Assembly: GCF_000379465.1 (NCBI RefSeq)
Contig: NZ_KB905408.1
Coordinates: forward strand, 1 to 40,036
Direction of reading: 5' to 3'
From: Sciscionella marina DSM 45152
GTDB taxonomy: Bacteria; Actinomycetota; Actinomycetes; Mycobacteriales; Pseudonocardiaceae
Length of the DNA: 40,036 nt
This document shows positions 20,652-35,675 of this stretch, piece after piece (within the stretch, counting starts at the first letter, position 1; every line of letters starts with the position of its first letter). The position numbers and the translations under genes were made by a program. Below the pieces are notes generated by a model. It was not told the origin of the DNA and ran no database searches. It worked only from the letters and a program-made list of their open reading frames with translations.

Positions 20652-20875
20652 CGCTGTACCTCTCCTTCGCTCACTTCGGTGAACAATCACGGGACCAGAC
20701 CTATAGAGGAACGATCTCGTTGTGCCACGGCGTCAGTGGTCGTCACTCTTCGCCAGGTTTATCGTGGCATACCTATATTTTTGGCCGTCGGGTCCGCCGG
20801 TGCCGAGTCGGTCGGTATCGCCTCGAAGCGCGCGGCGGTCAGGCGATCAGTTGTGTGTCTGTGAGGCTAGAACTG

Positions 20876-20892
20876 TTGCCAGGAATTGGCAA
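20876..20892. promoter_or_regulatory. Nur-like nickel box (inverted repeat)
   Basis: TTGCCA-GGAAT-TGGCAA is a perfect 6+6 inverted repeat with five-base spacing. The Streptomyces nickel regulator Nur (Fur family) is reported to bind tTGCaa-N5-ttGCAA. This site keeps the TTGC...GCAA core and the exact spacing, differing in the two inner positions of each arm. It lies between the divergent nickel permease and hyp/hydrogenase operon, where such control is expected. Binding is inference. Confidence 0.5.
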
Positions 20893-21094
20893 TTAGCAGT
20901 TTCTGGCGGCCGATGATCCGGTGTGTTCTTCCTGAGCGCGGCTTCGAACGGTCCGGGAATCCGTGCGATTCCCGGTGCGAGCTGGATCGGGATCAGCGTA
21001 CGGCCGGTATTCGGATTGTCGATCACTGCGAGCGTACGGAAGTGGCGATTTTCGGAGCCGAGCCAGCCGATCGGGTCCTTCGGGTCGGCAGCTG

Positions 21095-21123
21095 TTGACA
21101 GGCGCGGTCGGCGAGTCTATACA
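21095..21123 (+). promoter_or_regulatory. Consensus sigma-A promoter of the hydrogenase operon
   Basis: TTGACA (21095-21100), a 17-base spacer and TATACA (21118-21123) form a nearly ideal housekeeping promoter. Transcription should begin near 21130, leaving a leader of about 110 bases before hypC1 at 21239. Such complete hexamers are uncommon in high-GC actinobacteria. This position, upstream of the first gene of the operon, is convincing. Confidence 0.7.
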
Positions 21124-21137
21124 CGGGTACTACGAGA

Positions 21138-21153
21138 TGTGTTCCAGGACACA
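21138..21153. promoter_or_regulatory. Inverted repeat just downstream of the predicted start site
   Basis: TGTGT-TCCAGG-ACACA begins about eight bases after the predicted transcription start of the hydrogenase operon. Its position suits a repressor site that would block a strong constitutive promoter. The arms are only five bases, so chance is possible. Confidence 0.3.
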
Positions 21154-21238
21154 CCCGCGGAACTGACTGACCCACCACAGTGCGACGGGTAGTCCTATCC
21201 CGCCGCTTCCGCCGGCTTCGGCCGGAAAGAAGGCGCAT

Positions 21239-21553
21239 ATGTGCCTCGCGGTGCCGGGCAAAGTTGTCCATCTGCGCGATGAAGATGACACGCGCATGGC
21301 CGAGGTCGATTTCGGCGGCGTGCGCAAGGATGTCTGTCTGCAATACATCCCCGATGTCGAGCTCGGTGATTATGTCATCGTCCATGTCGGGTTCGCGATC
21401 CAGCGCCTCGATGAGTCTTCCGCACGCGAAACACTGGCCAGCTTCGAGAATCTGGGTTACCTCGAGGAGGAGTTCGGGGACCAGCTGGCTTTGGCGAGGC
21501 GACAGGCCGGCATGGATGAGGAATCGACCGCTGGGAAGGGAGAGCTGCCGTGA
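21239..21553 (+). CDS. hypC: Hydrogenase maturation chaperone HypC (copy 1)
   Basis: 104 residues from ATG 21239, with AGAAGG upstream. It starts [10 protein letters not shown], with the essential N-terminal Cys2 and the PG turn. The [13 protein letters not shown] and [17 protein letters not shown] blocks are characteristic of HypC/HybG/HupF. HypC binds HypD, carries the Fe(CN)2CO unit, and passes it to the large-subunit precursor. The C-terminal 25 residues are longer than in E. coli HypC. First gene of the operon; its stop overlaps the hypD GTG start (GTGA). A second HypC is encoded at 31,799. Confidence 0.96.
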
Positions 21554-22662
21554 AATACCTGGAGGAGTTCTCCGATCCGCAACTGGCCCGGCGATTGCTC
21601 GACCAGATTCATGCGACGGTGACCAGGCCGTGGGCGCTCATGGAGGTGTGCGGCGGGCAGACACACTCGATTATCCGGCATGGGATCGATCAGCTGCTTC
21701 CCGAAGGCATCGAGATGATCCACGGCCCTGGGTGCCCGGTGTGCGTGACCCCGCTGGAGATCATCGACAAGGCGCTCGAGATAGCGGCGCGCGAGGACGT
21801 GATCTTCTGTTCGTTCGGCGACATGCTGCGTGTGCCGGGCAGCAAGCACGATTTGTTCCGCATCAAGAGCGAGGGAAGCGACATCCGCTTGGTGTACTCA
21901 CCACTGGACGCGCTCAAGATCGCCAAGGAGAATCCGCAGCGGCAGGTGGTGTTCTTCGGGATCGGTTTCGAGACCACCGCCCCGGCCAACGCGATGACCG
22001 TGTACCAGGCCGAGCGGCTCGGTATCGAGAACTTCTCGCTGCTGGTTTCGCACGTGCTCGTTCCCCCGGCGATCGCCGCGATCATGGAATCGCCATCGTG
22101 TCGTGTGCAGGGTTTCCTGGCCGCGGGGCATGTGTGCAGTGTGATGGGGACACGTGAGTATCCGGCCCTGGCCGAGCGCTTCGAGGTCCCCATCGTGGTG
22201 ACCGGGTTCGAGCCGCTGGACATCCTGGAAGGTATCCGCCAGGCCGTCGTGCAGCTGGAATCCGGGCGTCACGAGGTACAGAACGCCTACCGCCGGGCGG
22301 TGCCGGAGGACGGTAATCCGGTCGCCAAAGAGATGTTGCGGGACGTGTTCGAGGTGACCGACCGCGCATGGCGGGGGATCGGTTCGATTCCGCGCAGCGG
22401 CTGGCGCCTTTCGGAGCGGTACCGGCGATTCGATGCCGAGCGGCGGTTCGCGGTGGCCGACATCCACACCGATGAGTCGTCGGTCTGCCGCTCGGGCGAA
22501 GTGTTGCAGGGCTTGATCAAACCCAACGAGTGCGCGGCCTTCGGGAAACAGTGCACACCGCGTAATCCACTCGGGGCCACCATGGTCTCCTCCGAGGGCG
22601 CATGCGCGGCCTACTACCAGTACCGCAGGCTCGATCTCCTTCCGGCGGGAGCATCACGATGA
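21550..22662 (+). CDS. hypD: Hydrogenase formation protein HypD
   Basis: 370 residues from GTG 21550. HypD is the iron-sulfur scaffold on which CO and CN are attached to iron. The key segments are [10 protein letters not shown] (Cys34), GPGCPVC (Cys62, Cys65), and the redox-site region around [16 protein letters not shown]. The C-terminal four-Cys cluster has Cys at [22 protein letters not shown] and EGACAAYY. Length and motifs agree with the family. It is coupled upstream to hypC1 and downstream to hypE (ATGA). Confidence 0.97.
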
Positions 22663-23750
22663 CTGAGGACACGCTGCCCACGAGCACGGCGAGCGGTCCC
22701 GCGATCGACGCCGATTCCTGGGTCTGCCCGCTTCCCCTGCGCGACTCGCCGAACATCGTGATGGGACATGGCGCGGGCGGTGCCCTGTCGGCAGAACTGG
22801 TGACGCATCTGTTCCAACCCGGTTATGGTGCCGCGGGCACGACCGAACTCGGCGACGCCGCCGTCATCGCTGCGCAGCCGGGCAGGCTGTCGTTCTCCAC
22901 CGACTCGTATGTGGTCAAGCCGACCTTCTTTCCCGGAGGCAACATCGGCGATCTCGCGGTCAACGGCACGGTCAACGATGTCTCGATGTGCGGTGGCAGG
23001 CCGATGTTCCTTTCCACGTCGTTCATCCTGGAAGAGGGCACCCCACTGGAAGATCTCGCTCGCGTGGCGCGGTCCATGGGGTGGGCGGCCGAACGGGCGG
23101 GAGTCCGGCTGGTGACCGGCGACACCAAGGTCGTCGATTCCGGGAATGGTGACGGTATCTACGTCAACACCGCTGGTATCGGCGTGATCCCGGATGGCGT
23201 GGACATCCGCCCGGATCGAGCACAGCCAGGCGATGCCGTGCTGCTCAGCGGTTGCCTGGGGTTGCACGGCATCGCGGTGATGAGCAGCAGGGAGGGCATC
23301 GATTTCGGCACCACGGTCGAAAGTGACACCGCTGCGCTGAATGACCTCGTCGATGTCATGATCGGCACCGGCGCGGACATTCATGTCCTGCGCGATCCGA
23401 CCCGCGGTGGCCTGGCGGCGGCGGTGAACGAGATCGCGCGGAGCTCAGAGGTCGGGATCGAGATCGAAGAGTCACGGTTACCGGTTCCCGAGGCCGTGTC
23501 CAACGCCTGCGGTCTGCTCGGCCTGGATCCGATGTTCGTGGCCAATGAAGGCAAGCTGATGGCGATCGTGGCCGAGCAGGAGGCTGACCGGGTGCTGGAG
23601 GCGATGCGCGGACACGAGGCCGGGCAGGACGCGGTGTACATCGGGCGATGCGTCGCCGAGCACCCTGGTGCGATGGTCGCGCGCACCGGAATCGGCGCGA
23701 CGCGGGTGGTCGACCTTCCGATCGGCGAGCAGTTGCCGCGCATCTGCTGA
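22659..23750 (+). CDS. hypE: Carbamoyl dehydratase HypE
   Basis: 363 residues; ATG 22659 overlaps the hypD stop. HypE dehydrates a carbamoyl group, delivered by HypF onto its C-terminal Cys, to make the cyanide ligands. The terminal PRIC, with Cys as the last residue, is present. The GHGAGG segment near the N-terminus, [39 protein letters not shown] and [16 protein letters not shown] are the ATP-binding blocks shared with PurM/SelD. A 30-residue N-terminal extension precedes the core. It needs HypF, encoded at 33,233. Confidence 0.97.
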
Positions 23751-23778
23751 GTCATGAGTGCATTCGAAGGGAGGATGC

Positions 23779-24594
23779 GTGTCTGCTTCTGAGGACGGTG
23801 CCGCCATGTTCGCCCGTTACGCGTATCCGCCGAATGAGCTCGGTTACTGCGGGCCGCCTTCGGCGATTCCATACGACGCCCGGTTCACCGGCGAATCCGC
23901 TGTGCGGCTCGCCCGCCGGTTCGCTGGAGCCTGGTGTTATTTGCAGACCATCGCGTTCGCGACCGGGTATGCGAATCCACTCGACCGCGCGATCGTGGAG
24001 GCGTATTGGCTGGGTGGGCCGCTGCTCGAGCAGGTGGACGGCGAACTGTTCGCAAAGGCGCTGAGCGAACAGTTCCGGGGACAGCACGGAGCCCGCATGG
24101 CGGGACTGGCCGACGGCACCGCACGCGCGCACCACGGTTTCCACGTCTTCGAGGTCTATCCCTGGTCCGGAATGCTCGAGCACACCGAGGGGCCGGCTCT
24201 GACCATTCTGGACAACTGCCGGATCCGGTGGGGGACGGTGATCGGGCTGGATGGCGATCGGGCTTCCGTGCTCTCGAAGCCGTTGTGCTGGGACGGTGCA
24301 CATCTGCACCTCGGCCAGGAACGTGTGGAACGTCCGCGCTGGCGGCAGTGGGAATCCGCACTGGTGGCCGGGCTGGCCGAAGGGGACGAGGTCGCGCTGC
24401 ACTGGGACTGGGTGTGTGATCGACTCGGCCCGGAGCAGCTCGAGGCACTGCGCGACGGCACCGAGGCACAGCTTCGCAGGACCAGCAGGGCGATCGCCGC
24501 GCAAGACGGCCGGATGCGGCGTTCGGAATCCCGGCCGGTGGCCGCGTCAAGCCGTTCGGACAGCGGTATTTCCCGTGTGGCCCGTTTCGGATGA
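23779..24594 (+). CDS. DUF6390-like hydrogenase-associated protein
   Basis: 271 residues from GTG 23779, which has GGGAGG four bases upstream; a GTG at 23758 is an alternative. The N-terminal stretch FARYAYPPNELGYCGPP is the most recognisable part and resembles the DUF6390 family found beside actinobacterial group 1h hydrogenases. A WCYLQTIAFATGYANPLD block and HHGFHVFEVYPWSGML suggest a compact soluble enzyme-like domain. The last 40 residues are polar and probably disordered. It sits between the maturation genes hypCDE and the structural genes, with a four-base overlap into the small subunit frame. Function unknown; a maturation or assembly role is inferred from position alone. Confidence 0.75.
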   Translation: MSASEDGAAMFARYAYPPNELGYCGPPSAIPYDARFTGESAVRLARRFAGAWCYLQTIAFATGYANPLDRAIVEAYWLGGPLLEQVDGELFAKALSEQFRGQHGARMAGLADGTARAHHGFHVFEVYPWSGMLEHTEGPALTILDNCRIRWGTVIGLDGDRASVLSKPLCWDGAHLHLGQERVERPRWRQWESALVAGLAEGDEVALHWDWVCDRLGPEQLEALRDGTEAQLRRTSRAIAAQDGRMRRSESRPVAASSRSDSGISRVARFG

Positions 24595-24614
24595 ATTCTC
24601 AAGGTGGTGACATC

Positions 24615-25685
24615 ATGCCGACAGAAACCGTGCCGGAGAATGCCGGTGCGCGCACCGAAGATCCGGTCATCCACATCCTCTGGATCAATGCCGGACTCAG
24701 CTGTGACGGTGATTCCGTCGCGCTCACCGCGGCGACCCAGCCGAGTATCGAGGAAATCGCGCTCGGCGCGCTTCCCGGCTTGCCCAACGTGGCGGTTCAT
24801 TGGCCGCTGATCGACTTCGAATGCGGTTCGGAGAAGGGGGCCGATGATTTCCTCGAATGGTTCCGCAAGGCCGACCGCGGCGAGCTGGAGCCGTTCGTCC
24901 TCGTCGTCGAGGGATCGATCCCCAATGAGGAGATCAGCGGATCCGGCTATTGGTGCGGTTTCGGCAATGACGAGGAGACCGGGCAGCCGATCACCACGAA
25001 CGAATGGCTCGACCGGTTGGCGCCCAAGGCTCTCGGTATCGTGGCCGTGGGCACCTGCGCCACCTATGGTGGTATCCATGCCATGGAAGGGAATCCGACC
25101 GGAGCCATGGGAGTTCCCGACTATCTGGGCTGGGACTGGAAGTCGAAGGCCGGGCTGCCGATCGTGTGCGTACCGGGCTGCCCGATCCACCCGGACAACC
25201 TGTCCGAGACCCTGACATATCTGCTTTACCAGGCCAGCGGCCAGGCGCCGATGATCCCGCTGGACGAGGCGCTGCGGCCGAGCTGGTTGTTCGGTAAGAC
25301 CGTGCACGAGGGATGTGACCGTGCGGGCTACTACGAGCAGGGCGATTTCGCCCACGAATACGGCTCGGAGAAGTGCATCGTCAAGCTCGGCTGCTGGGGT
25401 CCGGTCGTGCGGTGCAACGTGCCGAAGCGGGGCTGGATCAACGGGATCGGCGGGTGCCCGAACGTCGGCGGCATCTGCATCGGCTGCACCATGCCGGGAT
25501 TCCCCGACAAGTTCATGCCGTTCATGGACGAGCCACCGGGCGGAAAGCTGTCCACCACCGTCGTATCCGGCTACGGCTCGGTCATGCGTTCGTTGCGCGG
25601 GATCACCCGTAAGACTCTGGACAAGGAACCCAAGTGGCGCCAGCGCGGTCGGCAGCTGCTGACCGGTTACCGGCAGGAACGCTAG
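24615..25685 (+). CDS. hhyS: [NiFe]-hydrogenase group 1h small subunit
   Basis: 356 residues. ATG 24615 has AAGGTGG at good spacing; an ATG at 24591 overlapping the previous stop would add eight residues. The subunit carries the electron-transfer clusters. The proximal site reads SCDGDS: Cys30 is kept, but the usual second Cys is Asp33, the three-Cys/one-Asp ligand set known from the actinobacterial-type hydrogenase of Ralstonia eutropha. VGTCATYGG and VPGCPIHPDN supply the other proximal ligands. HEGCDRAGYY, LGCWGPVVRCN and GGCPNVGGICIGCTMPGF fit the distal and medial clusters. There is no Tat signal peptide, so the enzyme stays cytoplasmic, as expected for group 1h. Confidence 0.95.
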   Translation: MPTETVPENAGARTEDPVIHILWINAGLSCDGDSVALTAATQPSIEEIALGALPGLPNVAVHWPLIDFECGSEKGADDFLEWFRKADRGELEPFVLVVEGSIPNEEISGSGYWCGFGNDEETGQPITTNEWLDRLAPKALGIVAVGTCATYGGIHAMEGNPTGAMGVPDYLGWDWKSKAGLPIVCVPGCPIHPDNLSETLTYLLYQASGQAPMIPLDEALRPSWLFGKTVHEGCDRAGYYEQGDFAHEYGSEKCIVKLGCWGPVVRCNVPKRGWINGIGGCPNVGGICIGCTMPGFPDKFMPFMDEPPGGKLSTTVVSGYGSVMRSLRGITRKTLDKEPKWRQRGRQLLTGYRQER

Positions 25686-25752
25686 GACCGGGAACCGACC
25701 GCGCTCGAGCGGAGCCGCCAACCCTTCCCGACACGGCTTACGGAGGCCGCTG

Positions 25753-27549
25753 ATGACATCCACGAAAGCCCAACACCGGCAGACCGAGAAGAAGCCCTCG
25801 GAGCCGAACCTCGTCGAGATGAACTGGGATCCGATCACCAGGATCGTGGGCAGTCTCGGGATCTACACCAAGGTCGACTTCGCCAACAACACCGTGGCGG
25901 AGTGCAAGAGCACCTCGTCGATCTTTCGCGGGTACAGCATCTTCATGAAGGGGAAGGACCCACGCGACGCGCACTTCATCACCAGCCGGATCTGCGGTAT
26001 CTGCGGTGACAACCACGCGACCTGCTCGTGCTACGCGCAGAACATGACCTACGGCGTGAAACCACCGCATCTCGGCGAATGGATCGTCAATCTCGGTGAG
26101 GCCGCGGAATACATGTTCGACCACAACATCTTCCAGGAGAACCTGGTCGGGGTGGACTACTGCGAGAAGATGGTCTCCGAGACGAATCCCGGTGTACTCG
26201 CCAAGGCGGAGAACACCGCGGCGCCGAACGCCGCCGCGCACGGCTACCGCACCATCGCGGACATCATGCGTGCGCTCAACCCGTTCTCCGGGGACTTCTA
26301 TCGCGAGGCGCTCCAGGTCAGCCGTTCGACCAGGGAGATGTTCTGCCTGATGGAAGGGCGGCACGTGCATCCTTCCACGCTGTACCCCGGTGGTGTCGGC
26401 ACGGTGGCCACGATCCAGCTGATGACCGACTACATGACCAGGCTGATGCGCTATATCGAGTTCATGAAGCGCTCGGTGCCGATGCACGACGACCTGTTCG
26501 ACTTCTTCTACGAGGCACTGCCCGGCTACGAACAGGTCGGCAACCGCCGGATATTGCTCGGCTGCTGGGGATCCTTCCAGGACCCCGAGGTGTGCAACTT
26601 CTCCTACAAGGACATGGTCGCCTGGGGCCGGCGGATGTTCGTCACCCCCGGTGTCGTCGTGGACGGCAAACTGGTCACCACCAGCCTCGTCGACATCAAC
26701 CTCGGCATCCGTATCCTGCTCGGCAGCTCCTACTACGACGATTGGGAAGGCCAGGAGAAGTTCGTCAGCCACGATCCGCTCGGCAACCCGGTCGACGCGC
26801 GGCACCCGTGGAACCAGCACACCAACCCGCACCCGCAGCGCAGGGACCTGGACGACAAATACAGCTGGGTGATGTCACCGCGCTGGTTCGACGGGCACGA
26901 CCACCTCGCGCTGGACACCGGAGGCGGGGCGCTGGCGAGGCTCTGGACGACGGCGCTGGCCGGGCTGGTCGAGACCGACCATCTCAAGGCAACCGGCTCG
27001 AGTGTCCAGATGGAGTTGCCCAAGACGGGACTGAAACCGGCCATGCGGCTGGAGTGGAAGATCCCGAAATGGAGCAACACACTCGAGCGAAACCGGGCCC
27101 GGACCTACTTCCAGGCGTACGCCGCGGTGTGCGCGCTGCATTTCGCGGAACAGGCGCTCGCCGAGATCCGCGCGGGCAACACCAAGACCTGGGAGCGGTT
27201 CGAGGTGCCGCAGGATGGGATCGGCTGCGGGTTCACCGAGGCAGTCCGCGGTGTCCTCTCACACCACATGGTCGTGCGCGACGGGAAGATCGCGAACTAC
27301 CACCCGTACCCGCCGACGCCGTGGAACGCCAGCCCGCGCGACAACTACGGCACGCCGGGACCCTACGAGGACGCGGTGGCCGAGCAGCCGCTGTTCGAGG
27401 AGAACGACCGGGAGCACTTCAAGGGCATCGACATCATGCGCACCGTTCGCAGTTTCGATCCGTGTCTGCCGTGTGGGGTGCACATGTATCTCGGGAAGGG
27501 CAAATCGATCGAGCGGCTGCACTCGCCGAGTGGGAGCCCGGCCGAATGA
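25753..27549 (+). CDS. hhyL: [NiFe]-hydrogenase group 1h large subunit
   Basis: 598 residues from ATG 25753, with GGAGG upstream. It holds the Ni-Fe active site. The L1 motif RICGICGDNH (Cys81, Cys84) and L2 motif DPCLPCGVH (Cys571, Cys574) provide the four cysteines. His577 is the expected protease cut site, leaving a 21-residue C-terminal tail to be removed. The length, the FRGYSIFMKGKDPRDAHFITSRICG block and the sequence around the motifs match the high-affinity H2-oxidising group (Hhy of Streptomyces, Huc of Mycobacterium smegmatis). These enzymes scavenge atmospheric H2 and pass electrons to the quinone pool. It is 67 bases after hhyS and overlaps the next gene by ATGA. Confidence 0.97.
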   Translation: MTSTKAQHRQTEKKPSEPNLVEMNWDPITRIVGSLGIYTKVDFANNTVAECKSTSSIFRGYSIFMKGKDPRDAHFITSRICGICGDNHATCSCYAQNMTYGVKPPHLGEWIVNLGEAAEYMFDHNIFQENLVGVDYCEKMVSETNPGVLAKAENTAAPNAAAHGYRTIADIMRALNPFSGDFYREALQVSRSTREMFCLMEGRHVHPSTLYPGGVGTVATIQLMTDYMTRLMRYIEFMKRSVPMHDDLFDFFYEALPGYEQVGNRRILLGCWGSFQDPEVCNFSYKDMVAWGRRMFVTPGVVVDGKLVTTSLVDINLGIRILLGSSYYDDWEGQEKFVSHDPLGNPVDARHPWNQHTNPHPQRRDLDDKYSWVMSPRWFDGHDHLALDTGGGALARLWTTALAGLVETDHLKATGSSVQMELPKTGLKPAMRLEWKIPKWSNTLERNRARTYFQAYAAVCALHFAEQALAEIRAGNTKTWERFEVPQDGIGCGFTEAVRGVLSHHMVVRDGKIANYHPYPPTPWNASPRDNYGTPGPYEDAVAEQPLFEENDREHFKGIDIMRTVRSFDPCLPCGVHMYLGKGKSIERLHSPSGSPAE

Positions 27550-28415
27550 ACGGCGAACGGATCGAGGAACTGCTGGCTTCGTTCGCGGCCAACGGACCGC
27601 TCTCGCGGGCACGGGCTGAGGAATTGGTGCGGTTGGTCACCGAATTCCACGGTTCCGGCATCGAGCGGATCCTGGAGGTCGTGCACGAGACCGGCGCGCT
27701 CTCGACCGAGCTCCTCGACCGGCTCGCACGCGACGACCTGGTCTCGGGGCTTCTGCTGCTGCACGGACTACACCCCGATGACGCCCGCACACGCGTCGAG
27801 GAGGCGCTCGAGCGGGTACGTCCGTACCTGCGCTCGCACGGCGGTGAGGTGAAACTGCTCGAACTCACCGAGGACGGTGTCGCGCGACTGCGGCTGCTCG
27901 GCAACTGCCAGGGCTGCCCGTCCTCCTCGGTGACTCTGAAGCTGGCCGTCGAGGCAGCAGTGGAGGCGGCCGCTCCGGAGATCGAGCGGGTCGAGTCGGT
28001 GGACACCGGCGCCGAACGCGATGGCGCCTCGGTGATTCCGGCGGATTCCCTGCTGCAGCGGATGTTGCCCGCAGACAGCTCACCGGGAACGCACTGGGAG
28101 CCTGTCCGTGCGCCGGATCTGCCCTCCGGGGCGAGTGCCCCGATGACCGTGGGCGGTGTGGAGGTGCTGCTCTGCCACCTGGGTAGCACCATGTACGCCT
28201 ACCGGGACCGGTGCGGCCAGTGCGGGCAGCGGCTCGGGCAGGTCGGTATCCCGATCGAGACCGGGACACTGACCTGCCCGCAGTGCGGCACCGGATTCGA
28301 TGTCCGTAAAGCGGGAATCGCCGAGTTCGAGGCGGGTGTCCACCTCGACCCCTTGCCGTTACTCGAATCGGATGGTCAGCTGGAGATCGCGCTGCCGAAA
28401 GCGGTCCCGGCATGA
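27546..28415 (+). CDS. NifU-domain protein with a Rieske-like four-Cys domain
   Basis: 289 residues; ATG 27546 overlaps the hhyL stop. Residues 1-75 are helical. Residues 80-150 are a NifU C-terminal (Nfu) domain: VRPYLRSHGGEVKLLEL, then GNCQGCPSSSVTL with Cys121 and Cys124. Residues 185-289 resemble a Rieske domain in layout, but the metal ligands are Cys223-G-Q-Cys226 and Cys244-P-Q-Cys247. The two Rieske histidines are missing. This CxxC...CxxC set predicts a rubredoxin-type Fe or Zn site. A Rieske-type protein (HucE) accompanies the M. smegmatis hydrogenase. An electron-transfer or Fe-S delivery role for the hydrogenase is inferred. Confidence 0.85.
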   Translation: MNGERIEELLASFAANGPLSRARAEELVRLVTEFHGSGIERILEVVHETGALSTELLDRLARDDLVSGLLLLHGLHPDDARTRVEEALERVRPYLRSHGGEVKLLELTEDGVARLRLLGNCQGCPSSSVTLKLAVEAAVEAAAPEIERVESVDTGAERDGASVIPADSLLQRMLPADSSPGTHWEPVRAPDLPSGASAPMTVGGVEVLLCHLGSTMYAYRDRCGQCGQRLGQVGIPIETGTLTCPQCGTGFDVRKAGIAEFEAGVHLDPLPLLESDGQLEIALPKAVPA

Positions 28416-29104
28416 CGGTCGGGGAGTGGTTCTCGGTCGGCACGGCGGTGCGGTCGTTGCGGATGGCGCTGCGCGGAGACATCGGGGAGGGCGAGGCGGT
28501 CGTCGAACGGTGTCAGATGTGCGCCGAGCGAATCGAGGAACACCACGGGCACGTGGTCGATCTCGACTCACGCCGGTTGTTGTGCACTTGCCGACCGTGC
28601 GCGCTGCTGTTCGACACCGACGCGTCCGCCGGGCACTACCGCACGATCCCGCAGCGGTATCTCGCTTTCCCGGAATTCGTGCTGGACCGGGTTCAGTGGG
28701 AGGCGCTGCAGATCCCGGTGGGGCTGGCGTTCTTCTTTCACAACTCCCGGCTCGGCCGCACGGTCGCGTGCTATCCCAGTCCGGCAGGGGCCACCGAATC
28801 CGAACTGCCGATCGAGGCGTGGGAGAACATTCTGGCGGCCAACCCCCGGCTGCGCACTGCCATGCCCGATGTGGAGGCCGTCCTCGTGGCGGACGCGGGT
28901 GCGGAGAATCTCGCCCCGCCGAGCGAGGACGGCGGTTTCGCCTGCTTCCTGGTGCCCATCGACAGCTGCTACGAGCTGGTCGGGCATCTGCGCATGAGCT
29001 GGCGCGGATTCGACGGTGGACAGGAGGCCAGGGAGCGGCTGGAAGGGTTTTTCACCGAACTGCGCGGCAAATGCCGGCCCGTCGAGGTGTGCGAGGCGCG
29101 ATGA
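28412..29104 (+). CDS. DUF5947-family hydrogenase-associated protein
   Basis: 230 residues; ATG 28412 overlaps the previous stop. The N-terminal part has a zinc-ribbon-like Cys set: Cys34-x2-Cys37, then Cys58-x-Cys60-x2-Cys63 in RCQMCAERI...LLCTCRPCALLF. A helical and strand-rich domain follows, with FPEFVLDRVQWEALQIPVGLAFFFHNS and ending near CYELVGHLRMSWRGFDGG. This is the pattern of DUF5947, repeatedly found in group 1h hydrogenase operons. It probably binds Zn or Fe. It is coupled to its neighbours on both sides, so a stoichiometric partner or assembly factor is plausible. No activity is known. Confidence 0.8.
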   Translation: MTVGEWFSVGTAVRSLRMALRGDIGEGEAVVERCQMCAERIEEHHGHVVDLDSRRLLCTCRPCALLFDTDASAGHYRTIPQRYLAFPEFVLDRVQWEALQIPVGLAFFFHNSRLGRTVACYPSPAGATESELPIEAWENILAANPRLRTAMPDVEAVLVADAGAENLAPPSEDGGFACFLVPIDSCYELVGHLRMSWRGFDGGQEARERLEGFFTELRGKCRPVEVCEAR

Positions 29105-29742
29105 CCCAGCTGCGGTTCGAGGTGCTCGATATCCACGCGCAACGGTACGCCGTCGTGCCGATACTGCAGGTCCGGGTGCGCATCCAGGAAAACACCGGCG
29201 AACGGGTACACGCCATGCTGTTGCGTGCCCAGGTGCGCATCGACGCGCAACGCAGGCACTACGACGAAACCGAACGGACCGGACTGGCCGATCTGTTCGG
29301 CGAACCGTCCCGGTGGGGGCGCACACTCAAACCCTTTCTGTGGACCCACTGCGCGGCGGCTGTGCCGGGATTCCAGGAGACCACGGAGGTCGAGCTCCCG
29401 ATCCCGGCGACCTACGACTTCGAATGTACCGCCGCCAAATACCTGCACACGCTCGGCACGGGAGAGGTTCCGTTGTCGCTGAGCTTCGCCGGGACCGTGT
29501 TCGTCCGGGGAACGAGCGGTTTCGGCGTCGAACAGATCGCTTGGCACCACGATGTCGAGCACCGGATGCCGGTCGAGGTGTGGCATGCGCTGATCGCCGA
29601 GCACTACCCGGACACCGGCTGGATTCGATTGCGCCATGACACCGTGGCCGCGCTGCACCGGTTCAAGGCCGAGCGGGGACTGCTCGATCTCGACGAGGCA
29701 TGCACCACGCTGCTGGCCCGATCGCAGGCGCATGCGCCATGA
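29101..29742 (+). CDS. DUF6084-family hydrogenase-associated protein
   Basis: 213 residues; ATG 29101 overlaps the DUF5947 stop. It looks like a mainly beta protein with the opening FEVLDIHAQRYAVVPILQVRVRI, a LADLFGEPSRWGRTLKPFLWTH block, and VEVWHALIAEHYPDTGWIRL near the end. This is the DUF6084 pattern of actinobacterial hydrogenase loci. There are only two Cys residues and no membrane segment, so it is probably not a metal carrier. The strict four-base overlaps on both sides imply that it is made together with DUF5947 and the next protein. Unknown function. Confidence 0.8.
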   Translation: MTQLRFEVLDIHAQRYAVVPILQVRVRIQENTGERVHAMLLRAQVRIDAQRRHYDETERTGLADLFGEPSRWGRTLKPFLWTHCAAAVPGFQETTEVELPIPATYDFECTAAKYLHTLGTGEVPLSLSFAGTVFVRGTSGFGVEQIAWHHDVEHRMPVEVWHALIAEHYPDTGWIRLRHDTVAALHRFKAERGLLDLDEACTTLLARSQAHAP

Positions 29743-31154
29743 CCGAAGATCCGTTCGCGGGCGCGCGCGCCGTCGCCGACGCGGTCCTCTACGAGGGATA
29801 CCTGCTATATCCCTACCGGGCCTCGGCGGCGAAAAACCAGATCCGCTGGCAGTTCGGCGTTCTCGGGCCACCGAGCCCTGCCGGCGCGGTGCCCGTCGAA
29901 CCGTCGACCATGGCCACCGACTGTCTCATCGAAGGAACCGGCGGCGGGCAGATCGCGATCCGCGCCCGGTTCCTCCAGCTGCAGGCACGCACCGTGCAAC
30001 GGTGCGCCGGGGAGCGCCGGTTCGTCGCAACCGAGGAGCTGCACGGCACGGACGGTTCCTGGGTGAACTGGGACGAGGCCCACGAACACGAGAGGAATCT
30101 CGGCTGGTTCGACCTCGATGCGCTGACCACGACCGCGCAGAGCGTCCCGATCTCGGTGCCGGGCGGAGTGGACCTCGAAGACCAGCACGGCGATTCGGGT
30201 GCGGTCATCGGTCGGCTCGTCCGACGTCGCTGGGCGGCGGAGGCCGTGCTGCGGGTCAGCTGTGCAGCGGGCACCGGACCGGTGCGCAGACTGCGCCTCG
30301 AACTTCGCAACACCACGGGCAGCGGGGCGGTCGAGGAACCGACCGAGCCCGACGACCGCCATACCGACGACCGCACGCGTGCGCTGCGGCACGCTCTGCT
30401 CAGCGCCCACTTGGTGCTGCACGCCGAGAACGCCCGGTTCGCTTCGGTGATCGATCCTCCTCCGTGGGCCGGGGCCGCCGCGGCGCGCTGCCGCAGTGAC
30501 CGGCTCTGGCCCGTACTGCTCGGGGAGCCTGAATCCGCGGATACCGTCCTGGCCGCCCCGATCATCCTGCCCGATCATCCCCGGATCGCCGAACACAGCC
30601 GTGGTGCGCTTTTCGACTCCACCGAGATCGACGAACTGCTCTCGTTGCGGGTGATGACGATGACCGAGGAAGAGAAGCGCCAAGCCAGGGCCACCGATCC
30701 GCGCGCGGCCGAGATCGTCGACCGCTGCGAGCACATGAGTGCCGCCGATCTCGCGCGGATGCACGGCATCGGCACGCTCGCCGGGGGCGCGCCGGAGCCG
30801 GTACCCACCTGGTACACCCCGGCCGAGACCGGCGGTGCACCATGGTGGGATCCGGCGGTCGACGCCGCGGTCGATCCCGCGAGCGACACCGTCGAGGTCG
30901 ACGGGGTGGCCATCGGACGGGGGAGCGCGGTCCTGCTGCGTCCCGGTGCCCGGGCCGACGCGCAGGACCTGTTCTTCGCCGGTCAGGTGGCCACCGTGGT
31001 CGGAGTGCACCACGACGTCGACGGCAGAATCCACCTCGCCGTATTGCTGCGCGACGACCCGGCCAGCGAACTGCACGAGTGGTACGGGCGGTACCTGTAC
31101 TTCGGCACCGGAGAAGTCGAGCCGCTCCCTGCCGAGGGGAAGGAAGCGATGTGA
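29739..31154 (+). CDS. Uncharacterised 471-residue hydrogenase-cluster protein
   Basis: ATG 29739 overlaps the DUF6084 stop. The N-terminus AVADAVLYEGYLLYPYRASAAKNQIRWQFGVLGP is followed by a 300-residue soluble domain, a helical linker (TMTEEEKRQARATDPRAAEIVDRCEHM) and a beta-rich C-terminus. The C-terminal part (VDGVAIGRGSAVLLRPGARADAQDLFFAGQVATVVGVHHDVDG) looks like a small SH3- or OB-type barrel. I do not recognise a named family with confidence, though similar proteins accompany group 1h hydrogenases. There are no transmembrane helices and no Cys metal motif. The size and place in the run of unknown genes suggest a structural or assembly partner. Confidence 0.75.
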   Translation: MTEDPFAGARAVADAVLYEGYLLYPYRASAAKNQIRWQFGVLGPPSPAGAVPVEPSTMATDCLIEGTGGGQIAIRARFLQLQARTVQRCAGERRFVATEELHGTDGSWVNWDEAHEHERNLGWFDLDALTTTAQSVPISVPGGVDLEDQHGDSGAVIGRLVRRRWAAEAVLRVSCAAGTGPVRRLRLELRNTTGSGAVEEPTEPDDRHTDDRTRALRHALLSAHLVLHAENARFASVIDPPPWAGAAAARCRSDRLWPVLLGEPESADTVLAAPIILPDHPRIAEHSRGALFDSTEIDELLSLRVMTMTEEEKRQARATDPRAAEIVDRCEHMSAADLARMHGIGTLAGGAPEPVPTWYTPAETGGAPWWDPAVDAAVDPASDTVEVDGVAIGRGSAVLLRPGARADAQDLFFAGQVATVVGVHHDVDGRIHLAVLLRDDPASELHEWYGRYLYFGTGEVEPLPAEGKEAM

Positions 31155-31642
31155 TGAAAGAACGCGTCCTCGTCGCCGGTATCGGCAACATCTTCCTCGG
31201 CGACGACGGTTTCGGCAGCGAGGTCGCGAGCGCCCTGGCCGCCGAGGGCCTGCCCGCGCATGTGCGCCTCGTCGACTACGGCATACGGGGAATGCATCTC
31301 GCCTACGATCTGCTCGACGGATTCGCGGCCCTGGTCCTCGTCGACGCCATACCCGGAGAGCAACGGCCCGGCGCCGTCCACGTACTGGAGATCACCGAGG
31401 AACACCTCGAGACGCACGGCGGGCTCGACGCGCACGGTATGCATCCCGGCGCGGTGCTCGCGAGCTGCCGGATGCTCGGCGGCCGCCTGCCACGTACCTT
31501 CCTCGTCGGCTGCCGCCCGGAGCGGATCTCGGAGGGGATCGGGCTTTCCGCACCGGTCGCGCAGGCGGTGCCGACCGCGCTCGCCGCGATCCGCTCACTG
31601 CTCGAGCACGAACTGGCCGACCTCGCCGCGACGGCGGGGTGA
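31154..31642 (+). CDS. Hydrogenase maturation protease (HyaD/HybD family)
   Basis: 162 residues from ATG 31154; a GTG at 31151 is also in frame, and both overlap the previous stop. The family motif is GIGNIFLGDDGFG with Asp18 in the place of the nickel ligand Glu16 of E. coli HybD. LVDAIPGEQRPG holds the second acid (Asp64), and HGMHPGAVL supplies the His (His94 or His97). The protease senses Ni in the precursor of the large subunit and cuts after the final His of DPCLPCGVH, closing the active site. It is the natural partner of hhyL in this operon. Confidence 0.93.
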   Translation: MKERVLVAGIGNIFLGDDGFGSEVASALAAEGLPAHVRLVDYGIRGMHLAYDLLDGFAALVLVDAIPGEQRPGAVHVLEITEEHLETHGGLDAHGMHPGAVLASCRMLGGRLPRTFLVGCRPERISEGIGLSAPVAQAVPTALAAIRSLLEHELADLAATAG

Positions 31643-31665
31643 CCATCGAGGAAAGGAGAGAACCC

Positions 31666-31785
31666 ATGCGCAAGATCGGCAAACTCACCACCATGATGCT
31701 GCTCATCGGGCTCGGCGCCGCGGTGGTGCTCGGGATCCGTTCCGTCCCGGACGTCAAACGCTACCAGCGTATCCGGGACATGTAG
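31666..31785 (+). CDS. 39-residue single-helix membrane protein (DUF6893-like)
   Basis: ATG 31666 follows a strong AAGGAG ribosome site, 24 bases after the protease stop and 13 bases before hypC2. The peptide is MRKIGK, then a hydrophobic helix (about 8-24), then a charged tail (SVPDVKRYQRIRDM). This is the pattern of the DUF6893 small proteins of actinobacteria. The ribosome site and conserved context make translation likely. A single helix with a basic cytoplasmic tail could tether or recruit a soluble complex to the membrane. That role is inference. Confidence 0.8.
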   Translation: MRKIGKLTTMMLLIGLGAAVVLGIRSVPDVKRYQRIRDM

Positions 31786-31798
31786 GCAGGAGCGGGCA

Positions 31799-32071
31799 AT
31801 GTGCCTGGGTATTCCCGGCTGCGTCGTCGAACTCGCCCCCGACAACGACCAACTCGCCGTGGTCGAGGTCGCGGGGGCACGGCGAACAGTGAACATCGGC
31901 CTGCTCGAACCGGCGGCGATCGGGCCCGGCGACTGGATCGTGATCCACATGGGCTTCGCCATGGAACGGGTGGAGCCCGAGCAGGCCGCCGCCGCGCTCG
32001 CCGGACTGGAGACGATCGGGCGCCCGGACGCCGAGCTGCCCGGCAGACCGGTTCGTGAGGGGAACGGATAG
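31799..32071 (+). CDS. hypC: HypC-family maturation chaperone (copy 2)
   Basis: 90 residues from ATG 31799, with AGGAG upstream. It begins MCLGIPGCVVEL, keeping the essential Cys2 and the PG turn, and has the GDWIVIHMGFAMERVEPEQA block of the family. Compared with copy 1 at 21,239 it is shorter, has an extra Cys at position 8, and lacks the KDVCLQYI segment, so this is not a recent duplication. Two HypC-type chaperones often divide labour, one for Fe(CN)2CO loading and one for precursor binding. It lies just before hypA and hypB. Confidence 0.93.
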   Translation: MCLGIPGCVVELAPDNDQLAVVEVAGARRTVNIGLLEPAAIGPGDWIVIHMGFAMERVEPEQAAAALAGLETIGRPDAELPGRPVREGNG

Positions 32072-32082
32072 GAGGTGGGGCC

Positions 32083-32412
32083 ATGCACGAGCTCGCGATC
32101 AGCGAACAGATCGTGGAAGGTGTCGCCGAGCGGATGGGCACCGCCAGGATCGTCGGCGTGCGCCTCGAAGTCGGCAAGCTCTCCGGCGTGCTTCCGGACG
32201 CACTGCGCTTCTGTTTCGAGCTCGCGACCGAAGGAACGACACTCGAGGGCGCCCGCCTGGATATCGAGGAACCGGATGCGCGAGCGCACTGCCGAGGTTG
32301 CGGTGCGGACTTCAGCACCGCGGATCAGATCGTGCTGTGCGCCTGCGGAAGCGCCGAGGTGGACCTGCGTTCCGGTACCCAACTCCGTATCAGATCGGTT
32401 GAGGTGATGTGA
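32083..32412 (+). CDS. hypA: Nickel metallochaperone HypA
   Basis: 109 residues from ATG 32083, with GGAGGTGG upstream. It starts MHELAIS, where His2 and Glu3 bind nickel. The zinc domain has Cys70-x2-Cys73 and then Cys86-x-Cys88. The second pair is one residue closer than in the classical CxxC...CxxC form. HypA works with HypB to insert Ni into the large subunit after the iron centre is in place. It lies one base before hypB. Confidence 0.95.
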   Translation: MHELAISEQIVEGVAERMGTARIVGVRLEVGKLSGVLPDALRFCFELATEGTTLEGARLDIEEPDARAHCRGCGADFSTADQIVLCACGSAEVDLRSGTQLRIRSVEVM

Positions 32413-32413
32413 C

Positions 32414-33208
32414 ATGTGCGCGACATGCGGCTGCTCGGACGAAGCAGGGGTACGGGTGGACGGCACCGCCCTGCCGCACGAGCATTCCCACGAGCACGGG
32501 CATTCCCATCATCACGAGCCCGAACGGACGCTCAGGACGGTGTCGCTCGAACAGGACGTGCTCGCCAAGAACGCCGCGCTCGCCGAACGCAACCGCGGAT
32601 GGCTGGCCGCCAGACACATCGCGGCGATCAATCTGATGAGCTCGCCAGGGTCCGGCAAGACCACCCTGCTCGAGCGCACCGTCGCGGAAGCAACCGGCTT
32701 GTCGATCACGGTGATCGAAGGGGACCAGGAAACCCCCATCGACGCCGACCGGATCCGGGCCGGTGGTACTCCGACGGTCCAGATCAATACCGGTGCGGGC
32801 TGTCACCTCGACGCCGAGATGTTCGCGGGAGGCCTGCGCGCCCTCGATCCGCAGGAGGGCGCGGTGGTGCTGATCGAGAACGTCGGCAACCTCGTCTGCC
32901 CGGCGCTGTTCGACCTCGGTGAGCAGGCCAGGGTGGTGCTGATGTCGGTGACCGAAGGGGCGGACAAGCCGCTGAAGTACCCGCACATGTTCCGGGGCGC
33001 GGACCTGGTGGTGCTCAACAAGGTCGACTTGGTGACATACGTGGATTTCGACGAGGACCGCTTTCACGCCGATTTGCGCACGATCAACCCGTCCGCCCCG
33101 GTGCAGCGGGTATCCGCCACCCGCGGAACGGGTATGCGGGACTGGTTCGCCTGGCTGACCGAGCAGGCCCATTCGGCTGGGGCGGCCGCTGAACCGATCC
33201 TGCCGTGA
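32414..33208 (+). CDS. hypB: Nickel-inserting GTPase HypB
   Basis: 264 residues from ATG 32414. The N-terminal high-affinity nickel site MCATCGC (Cys2, Cys5, Cys7) is followed by a His-rich stretch (HEHSHEHGHSHHHE, about 22-35) that can store metal. The GTPase domain has the P-loop SSPGSGKT (76-83), GAGCHLD for the metal at the dimer interface, ENVGNLVCPA and the guanine motif NKVD. It is the last gene of the operon. Its stop is 24 bases from the convergent hypF stop. Confidence 0.96.
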   Translation: MCATCGCSDEAGVRVDGTALPHEHSHEHGHSHHHEPERTLRTVSLEQDVLAKNAALAERNRGWLAARHIAAINLMSSPGSGKTTLLERTVAEATGLSITVIEGDQETPIDADRIRAGGTPTVQINTGAGCHLDAEMFAGGLRALDPQEGAVVLIENVGNLVCPALFDLGEQARVVLMSVTEGADKPLKYPHMFRGADLVVLNKVDLVTYVDFDEDRFHADLRTINPSAPVQRVSATRGTGMRDWFAWLTEQAHSAGAAAEPILP

Positions 33209-33232
33209 TTCGGCCGCCGACCGAAACAAGCG

Positions 33233-35533
33233 TCACGGAGTGGGTGCCAGGGTGCCCGCGCGGTCCCGGGCGCCCGCGATGACGGCCTGACCGAAGCTGA
33301 TCCCGCCGTCGTTGCACGGGACCCTTGCCTGTGTGAGCACCGTGAAACCCTGTTCCCTCAACCGGTGCAGGCATGCCCCGGTCAGCAGCGTGTTGGCGAA
33401 CACCCCGCCGGACAAGGCCACTGTTTCGTGCCCGGTACGCTCGCGGATCAGGGCGCAACCGGACGCGATCGCACTGGCCAGTCCATGGTGGAATCTCGCC
33501 GCCGACACCTCGACCGGTGTCCCGGACAGATGGTCCTCGGTGACCGCGCGGATCAGCCCACCGGTATCGAGCTGGAACGGTTCCGCCGTGCCGATGGTGA
33601 CCGGGTAGGCATCGTGTTCCCGGCGGTCGGCCAGCTGTTCCAGCTCGACCGCGGCCTGCCCCTCGTAGTGCACCGAGTCCCGGACACCCAGGATCGCGGC
33701 CACCGCGTCGAACAGCCGCCCGGCGCTGGAGGTGCGCGGACTGTTGAATCCGCGCCGGAGCATGGTCAGCACCGCGTCCCACTCCTGCTCGTGCCGATCG
33801 TGCAGGCCGAGCTTTTCCGGCACCGCTCCGTCGAACGCGGCGTCGAGATGGGCCAGGGCCATTCGCCAGGGATGACGGATAGCGGCGGCGCCCCCGGGCA
33901 TCGGGACCGGGCTCAGCAGACCGGCGCGGTCGAATCCGAGTAGATCGGCGAGCAGGAACTCGCCGCCCCAGATGGTGCCGTCCGTGCCGAAACCCGTGCC
34001 GTCGAAGGCAACTCCGATCACCGACTCCGTGCGCTCGTTGTCGGCCAGACAGGATGCGATGTGCGCGTGATGGTGTTGCACACCGACCGTCGCGAGACCG
34101 TTCAGGGTTCGTGCGTGCTTGGTGGACAGGTACTCCGGGTGCAGATCGAAGGCGACCACTTCCGGTGTGATCTCGAACAGGCGGCCGAACTGCTCGATGC
34201 CCTCGGTGAACGAGCGCAGTGTCTCCAGGTTCTCCAGATCACCGATATGATGCGAGATGAATGCGCGGCTGCCTTGCGCGAGGCAGAACGTATTCTTCAA
34301 TTCCGCACCACAAGCCAGCACCGCCCGGGGAAAGCCGGCGGCCACGCGCAGTGGTTCGGGCACATAACCACGGGAGCGGCGGATCACGCATTCCGCGCCG
34401 CGTCCGGTGGGATCGGGGCGCACGACGGAATCATCGGTGCGGGTATGGATCGGCCGGTCGTGCATGAGGAATCCGTCCGCGATCGGTGCCAATCGCTCGA
34501 TGGCGTCCTCGTCACGGTAGGCGATCGGCTCGTCCGAGACGTTGCCACTGGTCAGCACGATCGGCCCGCCGAAGATGCCCAGCAGCAGGTGATGCAGTGG
34601 AGTGTAGGGCAGCATCACACCGAGTTCCCGGTTCCGCGGTGCCACCGAGGCGGCAACGACCGCATCCGGCCGTCTCGGCAGCAACACGATCGGTCGGCGT
34701 CTGCTCGTCAGCACCGGCTCCTCGGCGCGCTCCAGTCGGCACAGCTCGCGCGCGGCATCGACATCGGCGACCATGACCGCGAACGCCTTGTCTTCCCGGT
34801 GTTTGCGGGAGCGCAGCGCCGCACACGCCCGTTCCGCGCGCGCATCGGTGGCCAGGTGATAACCACCGAGCCCTTTCACCGCCAGCACGCCGCCTTCGCG
34901 CAGCAGCGCGGCCGCCCCCGCGACCGGGTCCGCGCCTGACTCCTGTCCCGCCGCGTCGACCAGGCGCAGTCGCGGACCACAGTCGGGACAGCACACCGGT
35001 TGCGCGTGGAACCGGCGATCGGCCGGGTCATGATACTCGCGGGCGCACCGCGGGCACAGCGCGAAACCGGCCATCGTCGTCGACGGGCGGTCGTAGGGAA
35101 TCCCGGTGACGATGGTGAAGCGCGGCCCGCAATTCGTGCAGTTGGTGAACGCGTAGCCGAACCGCCGATCGGTGGGATCGGCGAGCTCCGCCAAACAATC
35201 GGCGCAGGTGGCGCTGTCCGCGGCGATCAGCGTGTCACGATGTCCTGCATCGGTGCTCTCCACGATGCGGAAACCCGGTTCGGCGCGGACGGGAACGACC
35301 GTACTGTGCACCTCGTCCACTGCCGCCAGTGGTGGAGGTTCCGCCTCGAGAGCGTGGACGAACCGCTCGACCGCCGTAACCGCCCCCTCGATTTCGGCGA
35401 ACACCCCATGCACATCATTACCGACGAAACCGGCCAACCCGAGCCGGGTCGCCAGGCCGTAGACGAACGGGCGGAAACCCACCCCTTGCACGACACCGGT
35501 GACCCGGACCCTGAGCCGGACCCGTTGCTCCAT
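33233..35533 (-). CDS. hypF: Carbamoyltransferase HypF
   Basis: 766 residues from ATG 35533, with TGGAG close upstream. All domains are present: the acylphosphatase-like N-terminus (VTGVVQGVGFRPFVYGLA), two Cys4 zinc fingers (CADC..CTNC and CPRC..CPDC), a YrdC-like domain (GGVLAVKGLGGYHLATDA, TSGNVSDEPIA), and a Kae1-like domain with the VQHHHAHIASC His motif and VAFDGTGFGTDG. HypF makes carbamoyl-AMP from carbamoyl phosphate and ATP and loads HypE. It is the only hyp gene on the minus strand. Upstream on its own strand lies the Cys-rich gene, with an IdeR-like box before it. Confidence 0.96.
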   Translation of the reverse strand: MEQRVRLRVRVTGVVQGVGFRPFVYGLATRLGLAGFVGNDVHGVFAEIEGAVTAVERFVHALEAEPPPLAAVDEVHSTVVPVRAEPGFRIVESTDAGHRDTLIAADSATCADCLAELADPTDRRFGYAFTNCTNCGPRFTIVTGIPYDRPSTTMAGFALCPRCAREYHDPADRRFHAQPVCCPDCGPRLRLVDAAGQESGADPVAGAAALLREGGVLAVKGLGGYHLATDARAERACAALRSRKHREDKAFAVMVADVDAARELCRLERAEEPVLTSRRRPIVLLPRRPDAVVAASVAPRNRELGVMLPYTPLHHLLLGIFGGPIVLTSGNVSDEPIAYRDEDAIERLAPIADGFLMHDRPIHTRTDDSVVRPDPTGRGAECVIRRSRGYVPEPLRVAAGFPRAVLACGAELKNTFCLAQGSRAFISHHIGDLENLETLRSFTEGIEQFGRLFEITPEVVAFDLHPEYLSTKHARTLNGLATVGVQHHHAHIASCLADNERTESVIGVAFDGTGFGTDGTIWGGEFLLADLLGFDRAGLLSPVPMPGGAAAIRHPWRMALAHLDAAFDGAVPEKLGLHDRHEQEWDAVLTMLRRGFNSPRTSSAGRLFDAVAAILGVRDSVHYEGQAAVELEQLADRREHDAYPVTIGTAEPFQLDTGGLIRAVTEDHLSGTPVEVSAARFHHGLASAIASGCALIRERTGHETVALSGGVFANTLLTGACLHRLREQGFTVLTQARVPCNDGGISFGQAVIAGARDRAGTLAPTP

Positions 35534-35675
35534 GGCTCCAGTCTGCACCCAGTCGAGCCGCGTGGCAGCCGCCGACACGATCGGGTCGACGGCACTGTGC
35601 CGTGATTCCGCGTCGTACCGCCCGCGCTCGTCGTGCGATGGCCTGTCGGCACCCGCCACCGGACCGCTGCTCGGT

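Follow-up and report, generated by a model that had tools for sequence, protein, structure and literature searches.

Gene content of the Hhy locus

The stretch of DNA analysed here (the window) comprised 40,036 nucleotides (nt) of Sciscionella marina DSM 45152 and represents one entire contig (NZ_KB905408.1) of an 8.54 Mb genome. Judged from sequence, it very probably holds a complete group 1h [NiFe] uptake hydrogenase (Hhy) locus, transcribed as one or a few messages and serving survival at low H2. Fifteen genes, all on the + strand, span positions 21239-33208 in the order hypC1, hypD, hypE, DUF6390, hhyS, hhyL, hhyE, DUF5947, DUF6084, g10, protease, DUF6893, hypC2, hypA, hypB, with hypF on the opposite strand at 33233-35734. 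This layout, put forward in the original prediction, was recovered throughout by open reading frame (ORF) and family searches. The same searches bore out a full HypC, D, E, A, B and F set (HypA by context), a protease and five poorly known proteins; they identified two HypC proteins, HypD, HypE, HypA, HypB, HypF, both hydrogenase subunits and a HycI-type protease. The poorly known products are those of DUF6390, DUF5947, DUF6084, g10 and DUF6893.

The structural genes are hhyS (small subunit; 24591-25685, with 24615 as an alternative start; best match PDB chain 5aa5_A, E = 8e-167) and hhyL (group 1h large subunit; 25753-27549; 5aa5_C, E = 0, and tree). They are followed by hhyE (27546-28415), which encodes a NifU-like domain (PF01106, E = 5.7e-22) and a C-terminal region with two CxxC motifs, then by DUF5947 (28412-29104; PF19372, E = 1.8e-71), DUF6084 (29101-29742; PF19562, E = 1.1e-86) and g10 (29739-31154). 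The last encodes a conserved 471-residue protein, for which the Pfam and NCBIfam search gave no family and a 36-row alignment was built. The hydrogenase maturation protease gene (31154-31642; TIGR00072, 122 bits, cut-off 47) precedes DUF6893 (31666-31785), which encodes a microprotein of 39 residues (PF21833, 38.9 bits against a Pfam gathering score of 24.6).

Upstream of the structural genes lie hypC1 (21239-21553; TIGR00074, 82 bits, cut-off 48), hypD (21550-22662; TIGR00075, 491 bits), hypE (22659-23750; TIGR02124, 422 bits), whose start at 22659 forms an ATGA overlap with hypD, and DUF6390 (23779-24594, start 23758 or 23779; PF19927, E = 1.5e-84). Downstream are hypC2 (31799-32071; TIGR00074, 63.6 bits, cut-off 48), hypA (32083-32412; TIGR00100, 87.7 bits, cut-off 88.1) and hypB (32414-33208; TIGR00073, 266 bits), the N-terminal part of which is His-rich. 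The convergent hypF ORF matched TIGR00143 at 766 bits from residue 76 onwards, and its real start probably lies inside the ORF. A nickel transporter gene, nicT (19512-20690, - strand; NCBIfam NicT equivalog, 470 bits, cut-off 450), is divergent from the operon. The presence of two distinct HypC proteins in one operon was observed in passing; our guess is that one handles HhyL and the other serves cofactor assembly.

Class, distribution and origin of the enzyme

The assignment of HhyL to group 1h, as originally predicted, was supported by structure-database matches, by its L1 and L2 motifs and by a tree. After 5aa5_C, the next hydrogenase matched HhyL at E = 4e-44; for HhyS the next match after 5aa5_A was at 7e-41. 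The L1 motif (TSRICGICGDNH) and the L2 motif (SFDPCLPCGVH) of the window HhyL were letter-identical to the group 1h motifs of PMC5364354, and the motif claim of the original prediction was thereby confirmed.

Comparisons were made across 110 loci: the window, 19 from genomes of the phylum, 80 from named genomes (the best of at least 576 matches), eight same-family loci, plasmid pHG1 of Cupriavidus necator and one Mycobacterium intracellulare plasmid. Residue counts refer to 110 relatives, namely the same loci minus the window plus a Methylocystis locus (L185). This sample is biased to close relatives, and some of its members duplicate others or are truncated at contig ends. The L1 cysteines C81 and C84 and the L2 cysteines C571 and C574 of HhyL were kept in 110/110 relatives. 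Equally invariant (110/110), and aligned with 5aa5, were C38, D41, C156 and C197 of HhyS, which we take, from known hydrogenase structures, to be the proximal-cluster ligands. The predicted Asp ligand is thus D41, within a CDGD motif. Neither a twin-arginine translocation (Tat) signal, as already predicted, nor a C-terminal membrane helix was seen when the HhyS sequence was read directly. Cleavage of HhyL is expected after H577, and the 5aa5 chain terminates at the corresponding His.

The tree was built from 102 of the 141 sequences collected and was relied on solely for membership of 1h and for the closest neighbours. One group, with a Shimodaira-Hasegawa-like approximate likelihood ratio test (SH-aLRT) value of 98, united HofG of C. 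necator with 90 further rows, the window's among them; this is the outcome expected from the predicted class. HhyL of Nocardiopsis salina was sister to that of the window (SH-aLRT 96), and 13 of the 15 other same-family rows fell elsewhere. Loci of two same-order genomes (G038 and G096) fell among Mycobacterium and Mycolicibacterium.

The core hhyS-hhyL-hhyE-DUF5947-DUF6084-g10-protease was present, in this order, in 100/110 loci. Six of the ten exceptions stop at a contig end (L038, L039, L047, L052, L054, L075); in two (L034, L060) the protease match was not in place; and in two from a single genus (L044, L045; f5, g6) g10 stands before hhyS and DUF6084 gave no match. In one of the truncated loci (L038), moreover, hhyE is followed by DUF6084 without an intervening DUF5947, a family missing altogether from the genome concerned (G042). 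Around this mostly constant core the hyp genes shift in the other loci. The exact 15-gene order was found in 4/110 loci only: the window, N. salina and two same-family genomes, in one of which (L165) hypF is located elsewhere. The mycobacterial and streptomycete loci examined differ from the window in gene order.

Within the same family, 130 of 390 genomes matched HhyL at E <= 1e-200, the window's genome included. In the phylum set 34 of 246 genomes matched at E <= 1e-100; 25 of these reached 64% identity or more, in some cases over partial sequences, and were taken as 1h carriers. No HhyL match was found in the one other genome of the genus that was examined. Among the matches listed, the closest HhyL was that of N. 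salina (91%), followed by those of two same-family genomes (87-88%). That so rare a gene order recurs in N. salina and in two genomes of the family suggests that the 15 genes moved together, and the block may have been acquired horizontally. A mobile block would fit the extra nicT copy and the Mutator transposase at the contig edge, both described below.

A close known counterpart is the actinobacterial-type hydrogenase (AH, HofKG; PDB 5aa5) of C. necator H16 pHG1, the HhyL of which is 74% identical to that of the window. The two loci share a nickel transporter, small and large subunits, a NifU protein, DUF5947, DUF6084, a hypothetical gene at the place of g10, a protease and hyp genes, and the proximal-site Cys and Asp residues align. 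The full hyp set of pHG1 lies on one strand, with hypFCDEAB after the protease, whereas in the window hypCDE come first and hypF is opposite. The C. necator HhyE is short (192 residues) and matches only residues 4-150 of the window protein, and DUF6390 was neither annotated nor matched in the pHG1 locus stretch. N. salina (L050) carries all 15 genes in window order with hypF opposite. Upstream of its Hhy operon (L050:2614-4052) lie genes for CbiM and CbiQ, which belong to cobalt uptake families; no NicT match was found within the stretch examined, and it is possible that CbiM and CbiQ replace NicT as the nickel supply. Hhy of Mycobacterium smegmatis and HAH of Streptomyces avermitilis are actinobacterial group 1h enzymes, formerly group 5, and are likened to the window enzyme by class only (PMC6883350, PMC4767420).

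Several further observations were made on the relatives and on the flanks of the window. Three Actinoplanes relatives carry a second hhyS-like gene (L066:5670-7195, L080:6190-7122, L109:6166-7095) that is 69-72% identical to the window's; it has no adjoining large-subunit match and is an unexpected orphan (339 residues in L066, where an hhyE-like match follows it). The M. intracellulare plasmid (L175; NZ_CP012886.2, typed mobilizable) carries a group 1h locus, approximately 0.7 kb after which stand genes for NADH-quinone oxidoreductase subunits A to G. In the window's own genome a second NicT (G000:C24:420975-421991) is 56% identical to the window NicT, the same value as for the single NicT found in the sister genome; from these figures the window nicT copy may have arrived together with the hydrogenase. 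A fragment of a Mutator-family transposase lies at the contig edge (39706-40032). Consecutive genes for an HlyD-like protein, an ABC ATPase and a MacB-type permease (11120-14366) look like an export system. No Rfam family was found at 18000-36500.

Transcription and proposed function

Start codons at the gene junctions were picked from candidate starts. Overlaps of 4 nt, with no good alternative, were found at six of the 14 junctions (hypC1/hypD, hypD/hypE, hhyL/hhyE, hhyE/DUF5947, DUF5947/DUF6084, DUF6084/g10) and were possible at three more (DUF6390/hhyS, -4 or +20; g10/protease, -4 or -1; protease/DUF6893, -4 or +23), in line with the many ATGA/GTGA overlaps of the original prediction. Spacings at the remaining five were +7 or +28 (hypE/DUF6390), +67 (hhyS/hhyL), +13 (DUF6893/hypC2), +11 (hypC2/hypA) and +1 (hypA/hypB). 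A terminator scan of both strands gave five sites against 4.6 expected in shuffled sequences, leaving an internal terminator unsupported, and a promoter scan performed at chance level. From gene spacing and the absence of supported terminators a single operon is plausible. Most likely the 15 genes would form one transcript or a few overlapping ones starting within the 20691-21238 gap.

It is less likely, though worth keeping in view, that the genes are split among two or three transcription units, such as hypCDE-DUF6390, hhySL through the protease gene, and hypC2AB. Such a division would agree with the 67 nt between hhyS and hhyL, with the variable place and orientation of hyp genes around the constant core in relatives, which implies a separable core, and with the use of several units in S. 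avermitilis (PMC4767420). It is opposed by the 4-nt overlaps, six to nine in number, one of which (DUF6390/hhyS) may span the supposed boundary, and by internal terminators being no more frequent than chance.

The components read from the window comprise both subunits with conserved metal ligands, both active-site motifs, a HypA-F set, a maturation protease and a nickel importer. From family knowledge, the Hyp proteins would assemble the NiFe(CN)2CO centre, the protease would trim HhyL after H577, and the HhyS-HhyL enzyme would act in the cytoplasm. There H2 would be oxidised at the NiFe site, and electrons would pass through the HhyS clusters, the proximal one with three Cys and one Asp as its predicted ligands, to HhyE and on to the quinone pool. 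A role of HhyE in H2 oxidation is documented in M. smegmatis, in which the activity drops on deletion of hhyE or hucE and is abolished by the double deletion (PMC6883350). Survival on low H2 is the most likely purpose of the enzyme, and we infer that it would use atmospheric or trace H2.

The predicted label of a trace-gas-scavenging enzyme is right as the name of a class; the features cited for it are no proof of function, the C. necator 1h enzyme being reported as one of low affinity (PMC7174314). That the window enzyme is likewise a low-affinity hydrogenase and not an atmospheric H2 scavenger is improbable. The core gene set and the Asp ligand are shared with C. necator HofKG, which according to PMC7174314 has a Km of 3.6 uM and cannot oxidise atmospheric H2. 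However, HhyL clusters in the tree with actinobacterial copies, away from HofG, and oxidation of atmospheric or tropospheric H2 is reported for Hhy of M. smegmatis and for HAH of S. avermitilis (PMC6883350, PMC4767420).

Membership of group 2a (the Huc type) was tested and can practically be dismissed: Huc, too, serves trace-gas use in actinobacteria and has a partner protein of the NifU type (PMC6883350), but its chains (7uus/7utd) matched HhyL at only 4e-32 against 0 for 5aa5, and the window HhyE has the HhyE signature of two C-terminal CxxC motifs and not the Rieske-type HucE motif (PMC6883350). Huc of M. smegmatis, an H2 scavenger that feeds menaquinone and has HucM as its membrane stalk (PMC10017518), is therefore similar in outline and distant in sequence.

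Against the reading of a complete, jointly transcribed group 1h locus for life at low H2, the following points have to be weighed. Membership of the 1h class does not guarantee oxidation of atmospheric H2, because the C. necator relative is reported to have low affinity. The 67-nt hhyS/hhyL gap, together with the split units of S. avermitilis, where equivalent genes form one monocistronic and two polycistronic units (PMC4767420), leaves room for more than one promoter. HypA scored slightly under the curated cut-off, and its assignment was accepted on genomic context. The tree was a fast one whose outgroups sit on very long branches, which make its placement of other hydrogenase groups unreliable. 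Vertical descent with losses is also possible, as two same-family genomes hold close copies (87-88%).

Poorly known partners and the DUF6893 microprotein

HhyE meets the motif definition of PMC6883350, having a NifU domain and two C-terminal CxxC motifs. Its cysteines C121, C124, C223, C226, C244 and C247 were each kept in 73/73 rows covering at least 80% of the protein, and in 91-104 of the 110 relatives when short copies were included.

DUF5947 was matched in 107/110 relatives, those of pHG1 and Methylocystis among them. Within these 107, C34 and C37 were kept in 106, H45, H47, C58, C60 and C63 in all, and C186 in 104. The near-invariant cluster follows the pattern CxxC-x7-HxH-x10-CxCxxC and would provide what a metal or Fe-S site needs. 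In the phylum set DUF5947 occurred in 24 of 246 genomes, comprising 23 of the 25 1h carriers (not G042 or G184) and one further genome (G189), in which it adjoins DUF6084 and no HhyL match was found. DUF6084 also occurred in 24 of the 246, comprising 22 of the 25 carriers (not G128, G171 or G184), G189, and a genome (G216) whose HhyL-like matches are just 42% identical. Neither family was found in any of 14 control genomes, and both look usable as sequence markers of this hydrogenase group.

Structure prediction used alignments of 30 rows for DUF6084 (29 of 77 usable loci plus the window) and 36 rows for g10 (35 of 74 usable loci plus the window). DUF6084 was predicted to be rich in beta-strands, with helices, at a mean predicted local distance difference test (pLDDT) score of 90; for g10 the mean was 76. 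Foldseek searches with the two models gave no informative relative, the top template modelling (TM) scores on the query being 0.32 and 0.22, respectively. A small piece of g10 resembles PetP of cytochrome b6f (7r0w_V; TM 0.76 on the 64-residue target; E = 9e-3). DUF6390 was the sole poorly known gene compared by sequence with solved chains, those of Huc included, and gave only a chance hit. In a literature search that covered subscription journals thinly, no study of DUF5947, DUF6390 or DUF6893 was found, and DUF6084 had one mention, in a paper with an abstract on aurodox biosynthesis. Elsewhere, conserved hypothetical genes hhaABC were up-regulated together with a group 1h enzyme (PMC6776052).

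The DUF6893 product has one hydrophobic stretch and a basic C-terminal tail ending in IRDM, and its gene is preceded by a strong ribosome-binding site (AAAGGAGAG). The tail consensus, S-[IVL]-P-D-x-R-R-Y-x-x-x-R-x-Met-end, is of near-constant length. Searched with a pattern that requires the terminal Met, it was present on the operon strand in 94/110 loci; as background, the opposite strand gave none over the same 1.25 Mb, and 1.98 Mb of flanking strands gave one. ORFs listed by a motif-free scan ended alike, except one in L048 and one in L175. Seven of the 16 loci that lack the tail motif have incomplete downstream sequence. Among the other nine, two (L049 and pHG1, L173) have DUF6893 by hidden Markov model (HMM), one (L104) has a copy with an altered tail, two (L044, L045) have longer look-alikes judged by eye only, and in four (L034, L046, L048, L169) none was seen in motif-free ORF and transmembrane scans.

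The HMM was built from actinobacterial loci only (73 distinct sequences from 76 of 80 loci). In pHG1 it matched an ORF directly after the protease gene (L173:14703-14855; E = 1e-5) that is absent from the annotated gene table. This was the only match at E <= 1 in the two pHG1 stretches (L173, L174), and the ORF was also found by the transmembrane-ORF scan; it is probably a DUF6893 homologue. The idea that DUF6893 is confined to membrane-bound enzymes and absent with the soluble C. necator one was rejected on finding this ORF. In Methylocystis a shorter similar ORF was seen by eye only, and the HMM gave no match at E <= 1.

Across the 390 same-family genomes, 61 PF21833 matches exceeded the cut-off, and 52 of them lay no more than 10 kb from hhyL. 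The 61 matches came from 59 genomes, of which 54 carry Hhy (Fisher's test, p = 2.8e-24, which ignores relatedness). At E <= 0.01, 67 of the 130 Hhy genomes have a match near hhyL; the 32-position PF21833 model probably misses diverged copies. Exclusivity to hydrogenases was not upheld: nine of the 61 over-cut-off matches and nine of 24 weaker ones had no hhyL match within 10 kb. Five genomes have an over-cut-off match without a full HhyL, two with HhyL fragments and three without any at E <= 1e-20, and the neighbours of stray copies that were tested included no hydrogenase family. DUF6893 is thus strongly associated with Hhy, and not exclusive to it. About 1.3 kb from one stray copy (G444), an hhyS-like stretch in two frames (L182:2429-4933) looks frame-broken; it lies some 216 kb from the hhyL of the same contig.

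As a tentative proposal, to which we give a rather low probability, DUF6893 would be an overlooked 39-residue membrane subunit, its helix in the membrane and its basic tail docking the cytoplasmic HhyS-HhyL-HhyE complex to give quinone access, and DUF5947 would be an additional protein with a metal or Fe-S site, serving either the same path of electrons or the assembly of clusters. The tail is probably cytoplasmic because it is positively charged. The 1h genes of Methylacidiphilum include no membrane anchor, yet the enzyme is membrane-associated there, as in other bacteria, and its affinity falls when it is detached (PMC7174314); Huc reaches the membrane via HucM (PMC10017518). By analogy DUF6893 is a candidate for a HucM-equivalent role in Hhy. 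In one of two papers returned by a literature search on atmospheric H2, hydrogenase and small membrane protein, that phrase referred to gel migration and to a reference title. Speaking against an anchor, DUF6893 is also encoded beside the C. necator enzyme, which is reported to be cytoplasmic and of low affinity; its gene adjoins the protease gene or g10 and not the structural genes; and a few genomes encode it away from Hhy. In addition, two other hypothetical membrane proteins of the Methylacidiphilum operon, described as absent from Actinobacteria, have been proposed (PMC7174314). DUF6893 could equally be an assembly factor.

The locus belongs to a known system, within which it is unremarkable, and adds one carrier to a widespread, already described enzyme type. 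Its interest lies mainly in the two conserved partners, DUF6893 and DUF5947, of which no study was found and which are conserved with the enzyme tightly enough to merit deletion. If the proposed role of DUF6893 were true, the manner in which Hyd-1h binds the membrane, a question already raised in print (PMC7174314), would become testable via one 120-bp gene.

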